Virus record (IMG/VR): IMGVR_UViG_3300042861_000796
Location: 1 to 25,013 of that record
DNA length: 25,013 nucleotides
Reading direction: 5' to 3' (one strand)
From: a virus
Each line of letters begins with the position of its first letter. The first letter of the stretch is position 1. Below the pieces are notes generated by a model. That model was not told the DNA's origin. It saw only the letters and a program-made list of their open reading frames with translations, and did not search any database. Position numbers and translations under genes: made by a program. Positions 2,352 to 16,690 of the stretch are shown one piece after another.

Positions 2352-3389
2352 ATGAACATCTTCGACACACTTATACAAGCTGCCAAAAACAAATTAACAG
2401 AAGCGGATAAGGCTGTCGGCGGTTGGTTGCCTGGAGGCGGCGTCCCTAACCCAGCAAGTAACGCAGTACGACAGGTTCAGCAGTATACGAATATTTTACG
2501 GGACCCTGCAACACAATTAAAGAACCCAAAAATTTACAGAGCATGGCAAGAAAATCTAAGACCCATAACGCAACTGAAGCCAAAAGAATACTTTGAACCT
2601 TTACAGAGATCTTTTAGTAAGCCCACGGCTGTTCTTCATAATCCGTACACACAAACAAATGTAACGTTACCCATAAGTGTTGAAGGATTCGCAGACGAAA
2701 GACTAGATACTGGCAGTTTCTTAAAACCATCTGTAGGAATACATTTCAGCGGACCTGAAGATCTGCGCACTAGAGCAGAAGCTCGAAAAGAATTCTTAAA
2801 GTTGGGAGGGTCCCAGGAGGAAGCACGAAAACTATTCGTGCCTACTGATCCAGAGATGGAAAGAGCCAAGAGTTTAGCGTTACGAGCTCAGTTAGGACGA
2901 GGCATGGCTGCAATACAACCTGAAACATGGATAAATACTTATGCAAAACAAACGCCGTATAACAGCAGGGAAAAAGTATATGACCGTTTAACGAAAGGAG
3001 TATTTGCTGTTGACCCTGAACTAGGGGATATTAGTGTTTATAAAGAGAGCCCTACATCATGGAGAAATATTAAAAACCCAGAGAAAGTAATACAATTTGA
3101 TCCGCAGGAGTTAATCGAGCCCTTAAAACGGGAAGCTTTTGAACGTCCTGACCTAAATTCGCTTAGAAACGCTCCGCTTGGAGCAGTTGTCGAAGCAATC
3201 GGTAGACGAATTTCAGGTCCACAAGTGCAGGCAGTGATGTTTTTGGACGATATCGTCCGCCAAATGACGGGAGTGTCGCCCGCAGAGTCTGTAATCGAAG
3301 CCTCAAGTGAGCAAATTCGGCGTTCAGCGGAGCAACAACAGCGAATGGGAGTTCAAAATCCAAGAATCTGGCAAAACGCACCCTTCTGA
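2352..3389 (+). CDS. Hypothetical protein, 345 aa (possible virion-associated)
   Basis: ATG at 2352 preceded by an A/G-rich stretch. The N-terminus (IFDTLIQAAKNKL, then GGWLPGGGVPNP) suggests a helix and a glycine/proline linker. The body is mixed, rich in Pro, Arg, Gln and Glu, and the C-terminus contains SAEQQQRMGVQNPRIWQNAPF. No catalytic motif, signal peptide or transmembrane segment is visible. Such Gln/Arg-rich, Pro-punctuated proteins are common among phage internal or tail proteins, but that is only an impression. It is the last gene of its unit: an intrinsic terminator starts 20 bases after the stop codon. Confidence 0.7.
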   Translation: MNIFDTLIQAAKNKLTEADKAVGGWLPGGGVPNPASNAVRQVQQYTNILRDPATQLKNPKIYRAWQENLRPITQLKPKEYFEPLQRSFSKPTAVLHNPYTQTNVTLPISVEGFADERLDTGSFLKPSVGIHFSGPEDLRTRAEARKEFLKLGGSQEEARKLFVPTDPEMERAKSLALRAQLGRGMAAIQPETWINTYAKQTPYNSREKVYDRLTKGVFAVDPELGDISVYKESPTSWRNIKNPEKVIQFDPQELIEPLKREAFERPDLNSLRNAPLGAVVEAIGRRISGPQVQAVMFLDDIVRQMTGVSPAESVIEASSEQIRRSAEQQQRMGVQNPRIWQNAPF

Positions 3390-3408: not shown

Positions 3409-3435
3409 ATCGCCCCACGCGGGCGATTTTTTTTT
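3409..3435 (+). terminator. Rho-independent terminator
   Basis: A perfect 7-bp stem, ATCGCCC (3409-3415) with GGGCGAT (3421-3427), closes a CACGC loop and runs into nine T residues (3427-3435). This ends the 2126-3389 transcription unit and isolates it from the noncoding region that follows. The loop and right arm contain the CCACGC word that recurs on this strand throughout the window. Confidence 0.9.
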
Positions 3436-3606
3436 GCGGGGCGGCTGTCTGTATACTGACACCCAAAAGTTTTTTTGCCAATTTCCCAGCAAGATACCCA
3501 TACCCTTCTCGCCCGGGGCGTCGTCTAAAAGCTCTATTTAAAAAAAAAGAGACATTGCGGGCAGAGTTAGGTATACATTGCGGCTCACTATTTTATATTT
3601 AGTCCT
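3436..3606. other. Noncoding spacer between terminator and CG/TG tract
   Basis: No credible ORF: open frames here are short, have odd composition and overlap low-complexity sequence. Visible items are a weak hairpin around TGTC/GACA (about 3448-3466), a T7 run near 3470, an A9 run near 3540-3548, and an AT-rich TATTTTATATTTA at about 3588-3600 that could be a -10 region for the RNA downstream. No tRNA fold is seen. Confidence 0.5.
3552..3583 (+). promoter_or_regulatory. Direct repeat ACATTGCGG, 23 bp apart
   Basis: ACATTGCGG occurs at 3552-3560 and again at 3575-3583. The 23-bp period is close to two helical turns, so both copies face nearly the same side of the DNA, as in many operators. 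It lies directly upstream of the AT-rich segment and the CG/TG tract, in the place expected for a promoter or operator of the large RNA. Function is inferred from position only. Confidence 0.35.
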
Positions 3607-3712
3607 CGCGCGTGTGCGCGTGTACATGTGCGTGTGCGCCCGCGTGTGTGCGTGTACGCGTGTGTATGCGCGTGGGTGTGCGCGTTACATTCGCGCGAGC
3701 GTACGCGTGCGC
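3607..3712. repeat. Alternating purine-pyrimidine (CG/TG) tract, Z-DNA-prone
   Basis: Strict pyrimidine-purine alternation, mostly CG and TG steps, runs from 3607 to 3639 (33 nt) and from 3641 to 3674 (34 nt). Shorter alternating blocks continue to about 3712 (GTGTGCGCGT at 3676-3685, CGCGCGAGCGTACGCGTGCGC near 3692-3712). Such steps are those that most readily adopt left-handed Z-DNA under negative supercoiling. It is not coding: both strands give repetitive Arg/Val/Cys/His shadow frames only. It abuts the 5' side of the structured RNA region. Confidence 0.85.
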
Positions 3713-3713
3713 C

Positions 3714-4590
3714 CGGTTCCTGTTACCTATGAGAGAACCGTTACCTGTGTGCCAGTTAGGGCTCTTGGGATAAGTGGCACAAGAGGCTTGACCTACCGCA
3801 CTGATCCCGGATACCTTTAGGTCACTGGAGGACAGGCCACGGCCCGAACCCCAGAGCACCTAGACAATCCGCAACCGCCAGCCCTGATACATGGGCCGGG
3901 CTCAGCCAGCCGCTGATGGTAGGGAGAACATCCCCGAAACGTAGGCAAAGACTGACTGAGCTTAGCTTGAAACTGTAGGGATGGTGTGCGCGGATTCCTA
4001 GGCAAGGAACCTTGACAATCTAACTAAGCGTAAGTGTAGTAGGAACACTGCGAGGCTAGTACGAAATGTACTGCGCTTAGTTATACATAACTTCCCATAG
4101 AGTGTGGGCAATGCAGCCGAACTTAAGTAGGCCACCAGGGAGAAGCACCCTACACTCTATGTCAGCAGGTATCTTGTCTGTAACTAAGGCAATGTATCGG
4201 CGTTAAACATCAGCCACGCTCGCCCCGTGGCATCTGAATACAACTACATGCTGTCCGCTTGTAGTTAGTTACAGTGCACAAGCTGTGTCCAGCGTAACTG
4301 TCTATGGTGCAGGTACGCTGGACAAACTACCTAAGCTTCACCACGGCGTGTCCCGTGCGATGGCAGCGCAGGATTTTATAGTTTGTGTGCACAACTGTGC
4401 TCTGTAACTAACTACATACAGCTATTTAGTTTGAGTCAGTGAGCTCAGCTTCTAGTTGAGCGGATCCATGTATCAGCTAGCGCATTGTCGCTTAGTAGGT
4501 ATCAGGATCAAGTTAGATCATTCGTGATCACAGACTGTAGATTCTCTCCTCAAGCTTCATAGTTTGATGAGGGATTCATTCCCTCTTTGT
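3714..4590 (+). ncRNA. Candidate giant structured RNA (~880 nt)
   Basis: This block has no convincing ORF but many long perfect inverted repeats. CGGTTC 3714-3719 pairs with 3735-3740. TGTGCCA 3748-3754 pairs with 3775-3781, and its loop CTCTT (3762-3766) can pair with AAGAG (3781-3785), a pseudoknot. TGACCTA 3789-3795 pairs with 3818-3824. A 10-bp helix 4021-4030/4074-4083 encloses two hairpins. A 13-pair helix 4096-4108/4148-4161 has one bulge. GCCACG 4213-4218 pairs with 4226-4231. A 14-bp helix 4261-4274/4402-4415 encloses an 11-bp hairpin 4286-4296/4314-4324. GATCA-TTCG-TGATC is at 4516-4529. A stem 4569-4574/4580-4585 followed by TTTGTTGTT may terminate it. Size, phage context and complexity resemble ornate large phage RNAs such as GOLLD or ROOL; assignment is unverified. 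Plus strand is chosen from the TTCG loop, the terminator and the gene direction. Confidence 0.7.
4569..4590 (+). terminator. Terminator-like hairpin at end of structured RNA
   Basis: GAGGGA (4569-4574) pairs with TCCCTC (4580-4585) around a TTCAT loop and is followed by TTTGT, then TGTT. It is a moderate intrinsic terminator in the plus direction and marks a plausible 3' end for the large RNA. A separate hairpin, ACCAGC 4599-4604 with GCTGGT 4611-4616, lies just before the next start codon. Confidence 0.5.
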
Positions 4591-4623
4591 TGTTAGCTAC
4601 CAGCCATGTAGCTGGTGAATGTT

Positions 4624-4923
4624 ATGAACATCAAGACCAACAACCAACCACGCCGTCTGCTGTTTGCTTGTGAGTTCTCTGGCTCTGAGCGTGCCAAACT
4701 CCGCCAACAGTTTGATTGGATGAGTGACGAGGAGTTCGACTCCAATAGTTCTTTCTTTCGCTACAAAGGTTATTACTACAACCTCTCAGACTTCATGCGG
4801 GTTCATGTCTCACCTGACAGCCCTATGTCTGGCTGGCACGGTTACAGCTCCGACTCTTACTACAGCGGAGTTCTAATCAAACTGTGCGGCGAGGATATCA
4901 TCGTCGGCACATACATCTCCTGA
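4624..4923 (+). CDS. Hypothetical protein, 99 aa
   Basis: Starts at ATG 4624. An in-frame GTG at 4615 lies inside a hairpin (4599-4616) and is a less likely start. The protein has a basic N-terminus, an FDWMSDEEFDSNSSFFRYKG segment and a Tyr/Ser-rich C-terminal half (YSSDSYYSGVLIKL, then DIIVGTYIS). The pattern suggests a small alpha+beta protein, with no membrane helix. It is the first gene of the small-gene island, immediately after the large RNA, and might be expressed by readthrough of it. No family named. Confidence 0.65.
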   Translation: MNIKTNNQPRRLLFACEFSGSERAKLRQQFDWMSDEEFDSNSSFFRYKGYYYNLSDFMRVHVSPDSPMSGWHGYSSDSYYSGVLIKLCGEDIIVGTYIS

Positions 4924-10956: not shown

Positions 10957-10980
10957 TTTGTGTCAGAGCTTGCGCTCCCG

Positions 10981-11009
10981 TCCCTTGTGTAACGCAAGGG
11001 ATTTCTTCT
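10981..11009 (+). terminator. Probable intrinsic terminator
   Basis: TCCCTTG (10981-10987) pairs with CAAGGGA (10995-11001) around TGTAACG, followed by TTTCTTCT. The U-rich tail is imperfect. It separates the small-gene island from the RavA-ViaA-like operon. Confidence 0.65.
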
Positions 11010-12237: not shown

Positions 12238-12449
12238 TGGACAGGCGAGTGTATGTATTTAAAACACACGACGGTTATCTATCTGACGTAGACCACTACA
12301 CACACGACGTTACACGCGCTGTGTCATTCGTCGATATTGATGCGGCAGTAAAACGACTAGCGGCAGTCAGTGGAATGATCGCTAGTCAAGTCTCGATCGA
12401 AGAAGTCTCAATTCCTTTCCCACTTCCCTACCCCAGACAATTCTCATGA
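12237..12449 (+). CDS. Small hypothetical protein in the RavA-ViaA-like operon
   Basis: ATG 12237 shares a base with the preceding TAA (TAATG) and its TGA overlaps the next ATG (ATGA), so it is coupled on both sides. The 70-residue protein has VYVFKTHDGYLSDVDHYTHD, a VDIDAAVKRLAAVSGMIASQ helix and a C-terminal proline-rich IPFPLPYPRQFS. It could be a small adaptor of the AAA+/VWA complex, inferred only from its position. Confidence 0.6.
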   Translation: MDRRVYVFKTHDGYLSDVDHYTHDVTRAVSFVDIDAAVKRLAAVSGMIASQVSIEEVSIPFPLPYPRQFS

Positions 12450-13633
12450 ACGACCAACTCTTCGGCAAACTTCAAAACTTTCGTGGTGCTCTGAATGCTG
12501 CCACGCTCGAACGTGAGCATGTGATCGATGGTCTGCTCGCTTCCGTTATCTCTAAGCAAAACGCTTTCCTGCTCGGACCTCCGGGAACAGGTAAGAGTGA
12601 TCTCGTTCGTGGCGTCTGCAAAGGTATCGCGGGCGCAAACTATTTCGGTTACCTGCTTACTCCTACAACAGATCCCAGTGAACTGTTCGGTCCTGTTGCG
12701 GTAACCAAGCTACTGAAAGATGAGTACACACGGGACGTTTCGGGTTACTTGCCCTCAGCGCACATTGGATTCCTCGATGAGTTGTTTCGTAGCTCCTCTG
12801 CTATCCTCAACTCTCTCCTATCGCTACTTAACGAACGTACATTCAACAACGGCAACCAAGTCATAGAGACCCCGCTGCAATCGATCATCGCTGCGACTAA
12901 TAGCTGGCCTCAGGAAGAATCTCTGCAAGCTTTCGCAGATCGATTCTTGTTTCGTCCGACTGTCGAGATGCTGAAGAAACCGGTGTCTAAACGGACGCTG
13001 GATGAGTGGGCTTTGGGCATAGAGGATCGCCCACAGGTTGGCGAGTTTCTGACACTTTCGGAATTGAAAGAGATTCAGGAAGCTGCACGTAGCGTAAAAG
13101 TCTCAGAAGACTTCCTGGATAAGTTTAACTCTGTGTGGCAGATGCTGTCACAAAGGAGCATCACAATCTCTGATCGTCGCCGAGTGCAGATCCTTAAGTT
13201 CCTGAGAGCATGGGCCTTAGTCCAAGGCGATGAAGAGCTTTACCCAGAGCACATGCACAACAGCCTTGTACACATTGTGTACAACGACTTAGAAGATCAA
13301 AGCACTATCATCGAAATCCTTGAGCAGGAAGTTCCCACGGCGGAGCGGTTGTTCGCAGACGCAAAGCGAGCTGCCAGCGGAATTATGACCGAGTTCTCTT
13401 CGCTGCGTACTCGCCAACAACAGAACAACATCGGTTCTCTCAACGACCTTGTTATTCACCTGCGGAAATATCACAAGGATATGAACACGGTCAGGGACAA
13501 AGTAGACGAGCTTTTGGATGGTTCTAGGATTCGGATGAGCGTTGCTGTTAGGTCGAAAGCCGTAAAGCTCTCTCAAAACCTGCAAAACAACTGCGACACG
13601 ATTGCTCAAGCTCTCAACGAAATTACTCACTAA
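12446..13633 (+). CDS. MoxR-family AAA+ ATPase, RavA-like
   Basis: A 395-residue ATPase. Walker A GPPGTGKS is at residues 44-51, Walker B IGFLDE at 107-112, sensor-1 IIAATN at 147-152, and DRFLFR at 165-170 supplies the arginine region. Between them, EYTRDVSGYLPSAHIGFLDE and AILNSLLSLLNERTFNNG closely match E. coli RavA's GYLPEA-I-FLDE and AILNTLL-AINER-F-NG. The C-terminal half is helical with a lid domain and coiled coil. MoxR proteins form hexameric rings that remodel partner complexes with VWA proteins. The next gene, 3 bases away, is a VWA protein, so this is a RavA-ViaA-like pair. CobS-like cobaltochelatase ATPase is a less good match. Confidence 0.85.
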   Translation: MNDQLFGKLQNFRGALNAATLEREHVIDGLLASVISKQNAFLLGPPGTGKSDLVRGVCKGIAGANYFGYLLTPTTDPSELFGPVAVTKLLKDEYTRDVSGYLPSAHIGFLDELFRSSSAILNSLLSLLNERTFNNGNQVIETPLQSIIAATNSWPQEESLQAFADRFLFRPTVEMLKKPVSKRTLDEWALGIEDRPQVGEFLTLSELKEIQEAARSVKVSEDFLDKFNSVWQMLSQRSITISDRRRVQILKFLRAWALVQGDEELYPEHMHNSLVHIVYNDLEDQSTIIEILEQEVPTAERLFADAKRAASGIMTEFSSLRTRQQQNNIGSLNDLVIHLRKYHKDMNTVRDKVDELLDGSRIRMSVAVRSKAVKLSQNLQNNCDTIAQALNEITH

Positions 13634-16661: not shown

Positions 16662-16690
16662 AAGCCTCGCTTCGGCGGGGCTTTTCATTT
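16662..16690 (+). terminator. Rho-independent terminator with TTCG loop
   Basis: AAGCCTCGC (16662-16670) pairs with GCGGGGCTT (16675-16683), nine pairs with one G-U, closed by a stable C-TTCG-G loop and followed by TTCATTT. It ends the operon upstream of the polymerase gene. Confidence 0.9.

Follow-up and report, generated by a model that had tools for sequence, protein, structure and literature searches.

The phage antitermination signals nut and put are only about 60-75 nt long. In phage lambda, a nut site with its boxA stands in the leader of an operon that contains internal terminators. HK022 put, about 75 nt long, is a structured cis RNA at the start of the phage early operons, where it suppresses pausing and termination in a factor-independent manner and without a boxA (PMC9378689). 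The boxA element, to which NusB/S10 bind in rrn leaders, also has precedents before other untranslated RNA, as it precedes both rRNA and CRISPR arrays (PMC7862264). In the cyanobacterial 16S-23S spacer, boxA reads GAACCTTGAAAA and is followed by the D4 sequence CTGCATA (PMC8461337). A separate group of phage-encoded RNAs, GOLLD and ROOL, is large and ornate, with functions that are partly or wholly unknown (PMC12286853).

Here, we analysed a viral DNA stretch of 25,013 nt, the IMG/VR record IMGVR_UViG_3300042861_000796—hereafter called the “window”—which contains a block that shares features with all of these systems. A sequence-only reading had described this block as a large, ornate, gene-free structured RNA, possibly of the GOLLD or ROOL class or of a new one. 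On the + strand, the segment 3700-4610 folds at -340 kcal/mol, as compared to a shuffle mean of -295 (z -5.3), and none of 20 dinucleotide shuffles (0/20) is as good; the - strand is less extreme (z -4.0, dinucleotide shuffles). The inverted repeats named in that reading are present, although some are imperfect: the repeat 3866-3885/3977-3996 is paired at 75% and the 13-nt stem at 4096-4161 at 92%, while 4021-4030/4074-4083 forms 10 perfect pairs with 43 nt enclosed. Its “14-bp helix” turned out to be interrupted, and the longest helix is instead the 21-nt pairing of 4260-4280 with 4396-4416 (95%). The GATCATTCGTGATC hairpin was also found within the block. As for the proposed terminator-like end, the hairpin at 4569-4585 exists, but the U-tract after 4585 is broken and is not kept in the relatives; therefore, the block end is not a clear terminator, and no conserved terminator is found there. 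The coordinates of all of the features are collected in Table 1.

Table 1. Features of the structured RNA block and its surroundings in the window
Feature	Positions	Strand	Basis and remarks
Intrinsic terminator, stem ATCGCCCCACGCGGGCGAT then T run, closing the upstream gene(s)	3409-3436	+	conserved in L004, L008, L010
Highly conserved upstream block GTATACTGACAC ... CCAGCAAGAT ... TTCTCGCC ... AAAAAAAAAG ... TTGCGGGCAG	3449-3592	+	promoter-like
Structured RNA block	3713-4590	+	fold z -5.3; alignments and consensus folds of relatives; 5' end approximate
Hairpin CACTGG...CCAG just 5' of boxA1	3820-3854	+	compensated change in L073 (CTGATCG/CGATCGG), by eye
boxA1-like element GCACCTAGACAATC	3856-3869	+	aligned copies GAACCTTGAAAACTGAATC (L073), GAACCTTGACAACCGAACT (L078), GCACCTAGAAAACCGAATC (L041)
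5' rod domain between the boxA-like elements	3859-4002	+	base pairs boxA1 (3859-3863) with anti-boxA (3998-4002)
Near-invariant apical segment GATGGTAGGGAGAACATCCCCGAA	3915-3938	+	invariant alignment columns; IMG/VR scan, 21 contigs
boxA2-like element GAACCTTGACAATCTAACT	4007-4025	+	match to cyanobacterial boxA+D4
Stem TAACTAAGCG/CGCTTAGTTA with enclosed junction	4021-4083	+	inverted-repeat search; L008 counterpart stem GTTAG/CTAAC (by eye)
Stem CATAGAGTGTGGG/CCTACACTCTATG with interior	4096-4161 (4096-4108/4149-4161)	+	13 nt, 92%; region variable among relatives
Long-range 21-nt helix TGTAGTTAGTTACAG.../...CTGTAACTAACTACA, enclosing hairpins A and B	4260-4416	+	compensated in L073 (AGTGTTAGTTAC/GTAACTAACACT), by eye
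Hairpin A, TGTCCAGCGTAACTG ... CAGGTACGCTGGACA	4286-4324	+	best-conserved piece of 3' half; invariant pairs; IMG/VR motif scan, 26 contigs
Hairpin B	4334-4368	+	9 pairs with compensatory double changes, several with 3-4 pair types; 3 pairs E<0.05
Three GATC repeats, 10 nt apart; last two pair GATCA/TGATC	4506-4530	+	
Tail hairpin CTCTCC-[TCAAGC/GTTTGA]-TGAGGGA	4540-4577	+	inner helix 5/6 pairs double-changed, 4 at E<0.05; outer helix invariant
Alternative hairpin GAGGGA/TCCCTC, excluding outer helix of tail hairpin	4569-4585	+	weak: pairing 88% kept, slid control nearly equal
Same-strand gene run: small genes, MoxR/VWA pair, DNA polymerase, exonuclease	4615-25013	+	ORF list, Pfam, PHROGs; reaches record end
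Intrinsic-terminator-like hairpin inside run	10980-11002	+	conserved; compensated stem in relatives (GTCCCTTGTGTAACGCAAGGGAT, GTCCCCTGTGTGATGCAGGGGAT, ATCCCTTGTGCTACACAAGGGAT)
Intrinsic-terminator-like hairpin, CTTCGG loop, just 5' of DNA polymerase gene	16662-16683	+	conserved in relatives

Relatives of the block were collected from IMG/VR. The MoxR-like ATPase (12446-13633) as bait yielded 34 loci, several of which reach back to a homologous block, and the gene just downstream of the block (4615-4923) added ten further loci, while the upstream protein (2352-3389) yielded no relatives. Scans with hairpin A and the apical segment returned 26 and 21 contigs, and a third scan, for the anti-boxA and boxA arrangement, returned 20, mostly members already known. 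Removal of near-copies left 32 distinct stretches, of which at least L050 aligns over hairpin A only, so that about 30 are clear relatives. They have in common the 5' domain, hairpins A and B, a GATC-rich stretch, and the tail hairpin, with variable inserts between them. The GATC sites at 4506-4529 are spaced by exactly 10 nt in the window, a spacing kept in many relatives; this trio could be a protein-binding or methylation pattern instead of RNA structure.

The fold of the block is preserved among these relatives. For the 5' domain, aligned over 20 sequences, 88.7% of the cells of a 34-pair structure are paired, as compared to 32-48% when the structure is slid along the alignment, and 13 of the pairs are double-changed. 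The consensus folds reach z -8.5 for the 5' domain and z -12.8 for the 3' domain (RNAalifold energy against column shuffles), and in both domains the + strand of the alignment folds better than the - strand. When only the proposed pairs were put to a phylogeny-aware test, whose null was simulated along the tree, two, four, and three pairs reached E<0.05 in the 5' domain, the tail hairpin, and hairpin B, respectively. These nine base pairs compare with one in all slid controls together, in a test that is partly non-independent, since RNAalifold had proposed the hairpin B pairs from the very alignment tested, and the other two structures were drawn up after the alignments had been viewed. Over all pairs without this restriction, none reaches E<0.05 against the simulated null (best 0.10-0.11), as expected for about 20 sequences. 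The RNA strand holds no conserved reading frame: none of the three forward frames is open in any of the 20 or 22 relatives in either domain. On the reverse strand, a few frames of the short 5' domain stay open in 2-5 of 20 relatives, and the length of this domain varies from 170 to 177 nt, often no multiple of three. We thus consider the RNA structure of the block to be real, as established through comparison of the related sequences.

The proposed membership of GOLLD or ROOL was not supported. The covariance model of GOLLD (RF02032, conserved 3' region) found nothing at E<=10 in nine phage records, with the control genomes matched below the cut-off only, and that of ROOL (RF03087) likewise gave no match in these nine records or in the controls; the weakness of these controls limits both negatives. 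Neither family is listed in a scan of the block against the whole of Rfam at E<=10. The matches that do appear there are low-complexity miRNA-like or snoRNA-like ones, which we rejected, in the stretch 3600-3712, about 100 nt in which purines and pyrimidines alternate (GT/GC) and which only close relatives retain. At the gathering scores, the window has no match; Rfam scans of 12 relatives yielded nothing beyond the tRNAs in L042 and L043. The surmise of a new class fared better, as the lack of a match in Rfam 15 implies a new family.

Within the viruses, the covariance model of the 5' domain finds one copy each in eight of 13 phage records (E<1e-27), and weak boxA-sized matches only in two more. 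It also finds diverged members (L019, L020, L198, L199, L200, and L027). In the L042 group, the rod domain is missing and no more than one boxA-like match occurs. Searches of GenBank phages with the window's block and with that of L042 gave no DNA match, and the hairpin A motif has no match in cellular genomes. Against 291 genomes of the Microcoleus class, the 5' model recovers boxA-sized scraps only (E>=0.038). The block belongs to uncultured viruses of cyanobacteria and constitutes a new RNA family, absent from Rfam 15.

The 5' domain is a rod flanked by two copies of a G[AC]ACCTNGACAAYYGAATA-like motif. The resemblance of this motif to the cyanobacterial boxA+D4 is closest in L027 (GAACCTTGAAAACTGAATA, 18/19 letters), followed by L060, L062, and L073 (17/19), and several relatives have 16-17/19. 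The copies in the window are weaker: boxA2 (GAACCTTGACAATC, at 4007) matches 11 of the 12 core letters, and boxA1 (GCACCTAGACAATC) is off consensus and paired. The start-to-start spacing of the two elements is 148-154 nt, typically about 152, in 20 of the 21 sequences with the apical segment; in the remaining one, L018, an insertion extends it to 179 nt. An anti-boxA directly preceding boxA2 forms pairs with the 5' half of boxA1, and this pairing covaries (CACCTAG/CTAGGTG, AACCTAG/CTAGGTT, and AACCTTG/CAAGGTT), with E=0.001 for the best pair (columns 5-158). Of the 17 boxA matches in the 13 phage records, 16 fall within or beside the block, on its strand, that of G012 placed by neighbourhood alone, as compared to seven scattered matches in the reversed-letter control.

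The position and strand of the block relative to a long transcription unit are conserved among the relatives. According to mechanical ORF runs, made without gene calling, the RNA heads a same-strand run of 25.6 kb in G001, 25.7 kb in G002, 23.6 kb in G008, and about 26-28 kb in G003 and G005; the runs in G007 (at least 10 kb) and G004 (at least 6.4 kb) are ended by the contig edge. In these genomes, the ORFs on the other side of the RNA run mostly in the opposite direction. In the window, genes upstream of the block are on the same strand and end in the strong intrinsic terminator at 3409-3436. The conserved upstream block follows, 306-388 nt 5' of the first boxA-like match in 18 relatives and single copy in G005 and G003, the two genomes checked. 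It contains a TATACT/TATAAT-like hexamer, CCAGCAAGAT, CTCGCC, and an A8 tract. At the other end, a CCAGC...GCTGG hairpin (4600-4614) precedes the ATG of the downstream gene and recurs before another small gene in relatives (L041 3885-3936). The two conserved terminator-like hairpins inside the run are candidate sites of read-through in an antitermination reading; they could also simply end sub-operons with their own promoters, which would count against that reading.

NblA is a phycobilisome-degradation protein of cyanobacteria. NblA-like genes occur in nine of the 12 large relatives at E<=0.001 (two above the Pfam cut-off), and among 14 control genomes only in Synechococcus elongatus. The named phages nearest by DNA polymerase infect Pseudanabaena, with 28% identity for PA-SR01. 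The hosts of the family are thus cyanobacteria, that of the window as inferred from its relatives. No boxA was found in the 42-kb stretch read of PA-SR01, which has 900 bp without annotated genes (L208 37571-38470).

Where does this form of boxA occur in cellular genomes? The motif GAACCTTGACAACWGAATA matched 112 genome stretches, as compared to about 15 expected from our own base-count estimate. Eleven of the 112 matches are upstream of rRNA genes located through a motif search, nine just 5' of 23S and two 5' of 16S. In Microcoleus FACHB-DQ6, an Oculatellaceae MAG, and Phormidium tenue FACHB-1050, the form found in the relatives (GAACCTTGACAACTGAATA) is 5' of arrays of 7-32 tRNA genes, 29-162 nt from the first tRNA (tRNA-array loci: L104 1990, L123 4823, L127 5859), while in Oscillatoria princeps it is downstream of most tRNAs. 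Many further matches lie elsewhere, chiefly in Firmicutes. By its sequence surroundings, then, this form of the motif marks long untranslated transcripts in the host phylum, though it is not confined to them. At L087, L088, L101, L105, L133, and about 15 similar loci, in Anaerococcus, Peptoniphilus, Finegoldia, and others, the motif is followed by a near-identical leader (GACCAAGACAGGACATTAACCATTTGTGGAGC) that looks like the leader of one mobile element. At the cyanobacterial loci L099, L118, L120, L146, and L154, GGTGAGA-type hairpins of an RNA follow it, and L146 has a group II intron domain 2.6 kb further along.

Three things had escaped the sequence-only reading: the pair of boxA-like elements, the identity of the hosts as cyanobacteria, and the head-of-run position. 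Together, they favor transcription antitermination over a cage-forming RNA. We propose, with a probability of about one half, that the block is an oversized processive antitermination leader of a phage operon, of the nut/put/rrn type. How would such a leader act? First, RNA polymerase would start upstream of the block, possibly within the conserved 3449-3592 region, and transcribe the large structured leader with its two rrn-type boxA elements. The rod would fold during synthesis, so that boxA1 is held by the anti-boxA and boxA2 stays free. Then, host NusB/S10, with NusA and NusG, would bind boxA on the nascent RNA and remain with the polymerase. Finally, the polymerase would read through the terminators of the 20-28 kb replication-type operon, as with lambda nut, HK022 put, and the rrn leader. 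Since cyanobacteria lack Rho (PMC13289151), classical Rho-blocking cannot be the purpose of this putative leader; its benefit would be against pausing or intrinsic termination, or for RNA folding.

The block differs from rrn boxA, nut, and put in its size, its paired boxA elements, and its anti-boxA. It shares with rrn boxA the 12-nt core and D4-like letters, the location before a long untranslated or structured RNA, and the strand logic. Unlike rrn boxA, it is phage-borne, has two copies separated by about 152 nt, a covarying rod between them, and an anti-boxA as the pairing partner of boxA1, and heads a protein operon, not rRNA genes. As in lambda, boxA is part of a phage operon leader, a putative one here, and the operon contains internal hairpins, which are terminator-like here; in contrast to lambda, the block has no identified boxB-type 15-nt hairpin or N-like protein, is about ten times longer, and belongs to other hosts. 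Our search of the phages for a boxB or an N-like protein found neither, N-like peptides being too short and variable for exclusion, and none of the 13 phage records has a NusB or NusG domain. With put, the block shares the structured RNA at the start of a phage operon, and sequence similarity to it is not expected. Among the openly accessible journal papers searched, we found none on cyanophages and boxA in this sense.

The off-consensus, paired boxA1 of the window and the rod-less L042 group speak against the antitermination leader reading. This reading also leaves the size and the 3' half of the block without explanation, and for that reason we keep a trans-acting giant noncoding RNA as a strong, if tentative, rival. 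Such an RNA would be GOLLD/ROOL-like in function, abundant in infection and released by processing near the 3' hairpins, and boxA would serve only the synthesis of this RNA without premature stops, as it does for rRNA, tRNA arrays, and CRISPR arrays. The length near 900 nt, the multi-domain covarying fold, and the variable inserted domains are consistent with this possibility; moreover, the hosts place the same boxA form before tRNA arrays, and boxA 5' of long noncoding RNAs is established (PMC7862264). The block is also like GOLLD and ROOL in being large, ornate, and phage-encoded, and in the L042/L043 relatives tRNA genes lie no more than a few kb away. However, no homology to them was found, with no Rfam model match at E<=10, and the block has two boxA-like elements, while the GOLLD/ROOL paper reports no boxA (PMC12286853). 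The missing conserved 3' terminator, the fixed position heading a long gene run, and a boxA pair more elaborate than anything in an rRNA leader also argue against a trans-acting product. The two readings are compatible, and both can be true.

The tail of the block allows an attenuating leader of the small-gene island, in which GAGGGA would pair with the upstream CTCTC to read on or with the downstream TCCCTC to stop, while the large domain senses some signal. The mutually exclusive pairings are found in nearly all relatives, with the outer tail helix invariant; however, the downstream pairing is no better than slid controls, the U-tract is absent in many relatives, and boxA is left unexplained, which makes this reading unlikely. 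We regard as still more speculative a new giant phage RNA class in which the paired boxA elements capture the host factors for rRNA antitermination and ribosome assembly, and in which a single anti-boxA, contested by boxA1 and boxA2, acts as a switch; this RNA would both drive the operon and divert the factors from host rRNA synthesis. Lastly, a DNA-level element with incidental structure (a replication origin or a partition or packaging site), as the conserved upstream A-tract block, the three GATC sites at 10-bp spacing, and the divergent gene clusters flanking the block in several relatives might suggest, is very improbable, given compensatory changes that preserve RNA-type pairing, better folding of the + strand in both domains, strand-specific boxA orientation, and a GC skew without a clear switch at the block in G005 or G003.

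The block adds to the phages a large structured RNA family outside Rfam 15, with relatives numerous enough to define its fold. If the antitermination leader reading is true, the block would give a boxA-type antitermination leader to phages that infect Rho-less cyanobacteria, where the purpose of boxA beyond Rho-blocking is open. It would thereby link two themes that are usually separate, giant phage RNAs and processive antitermination.
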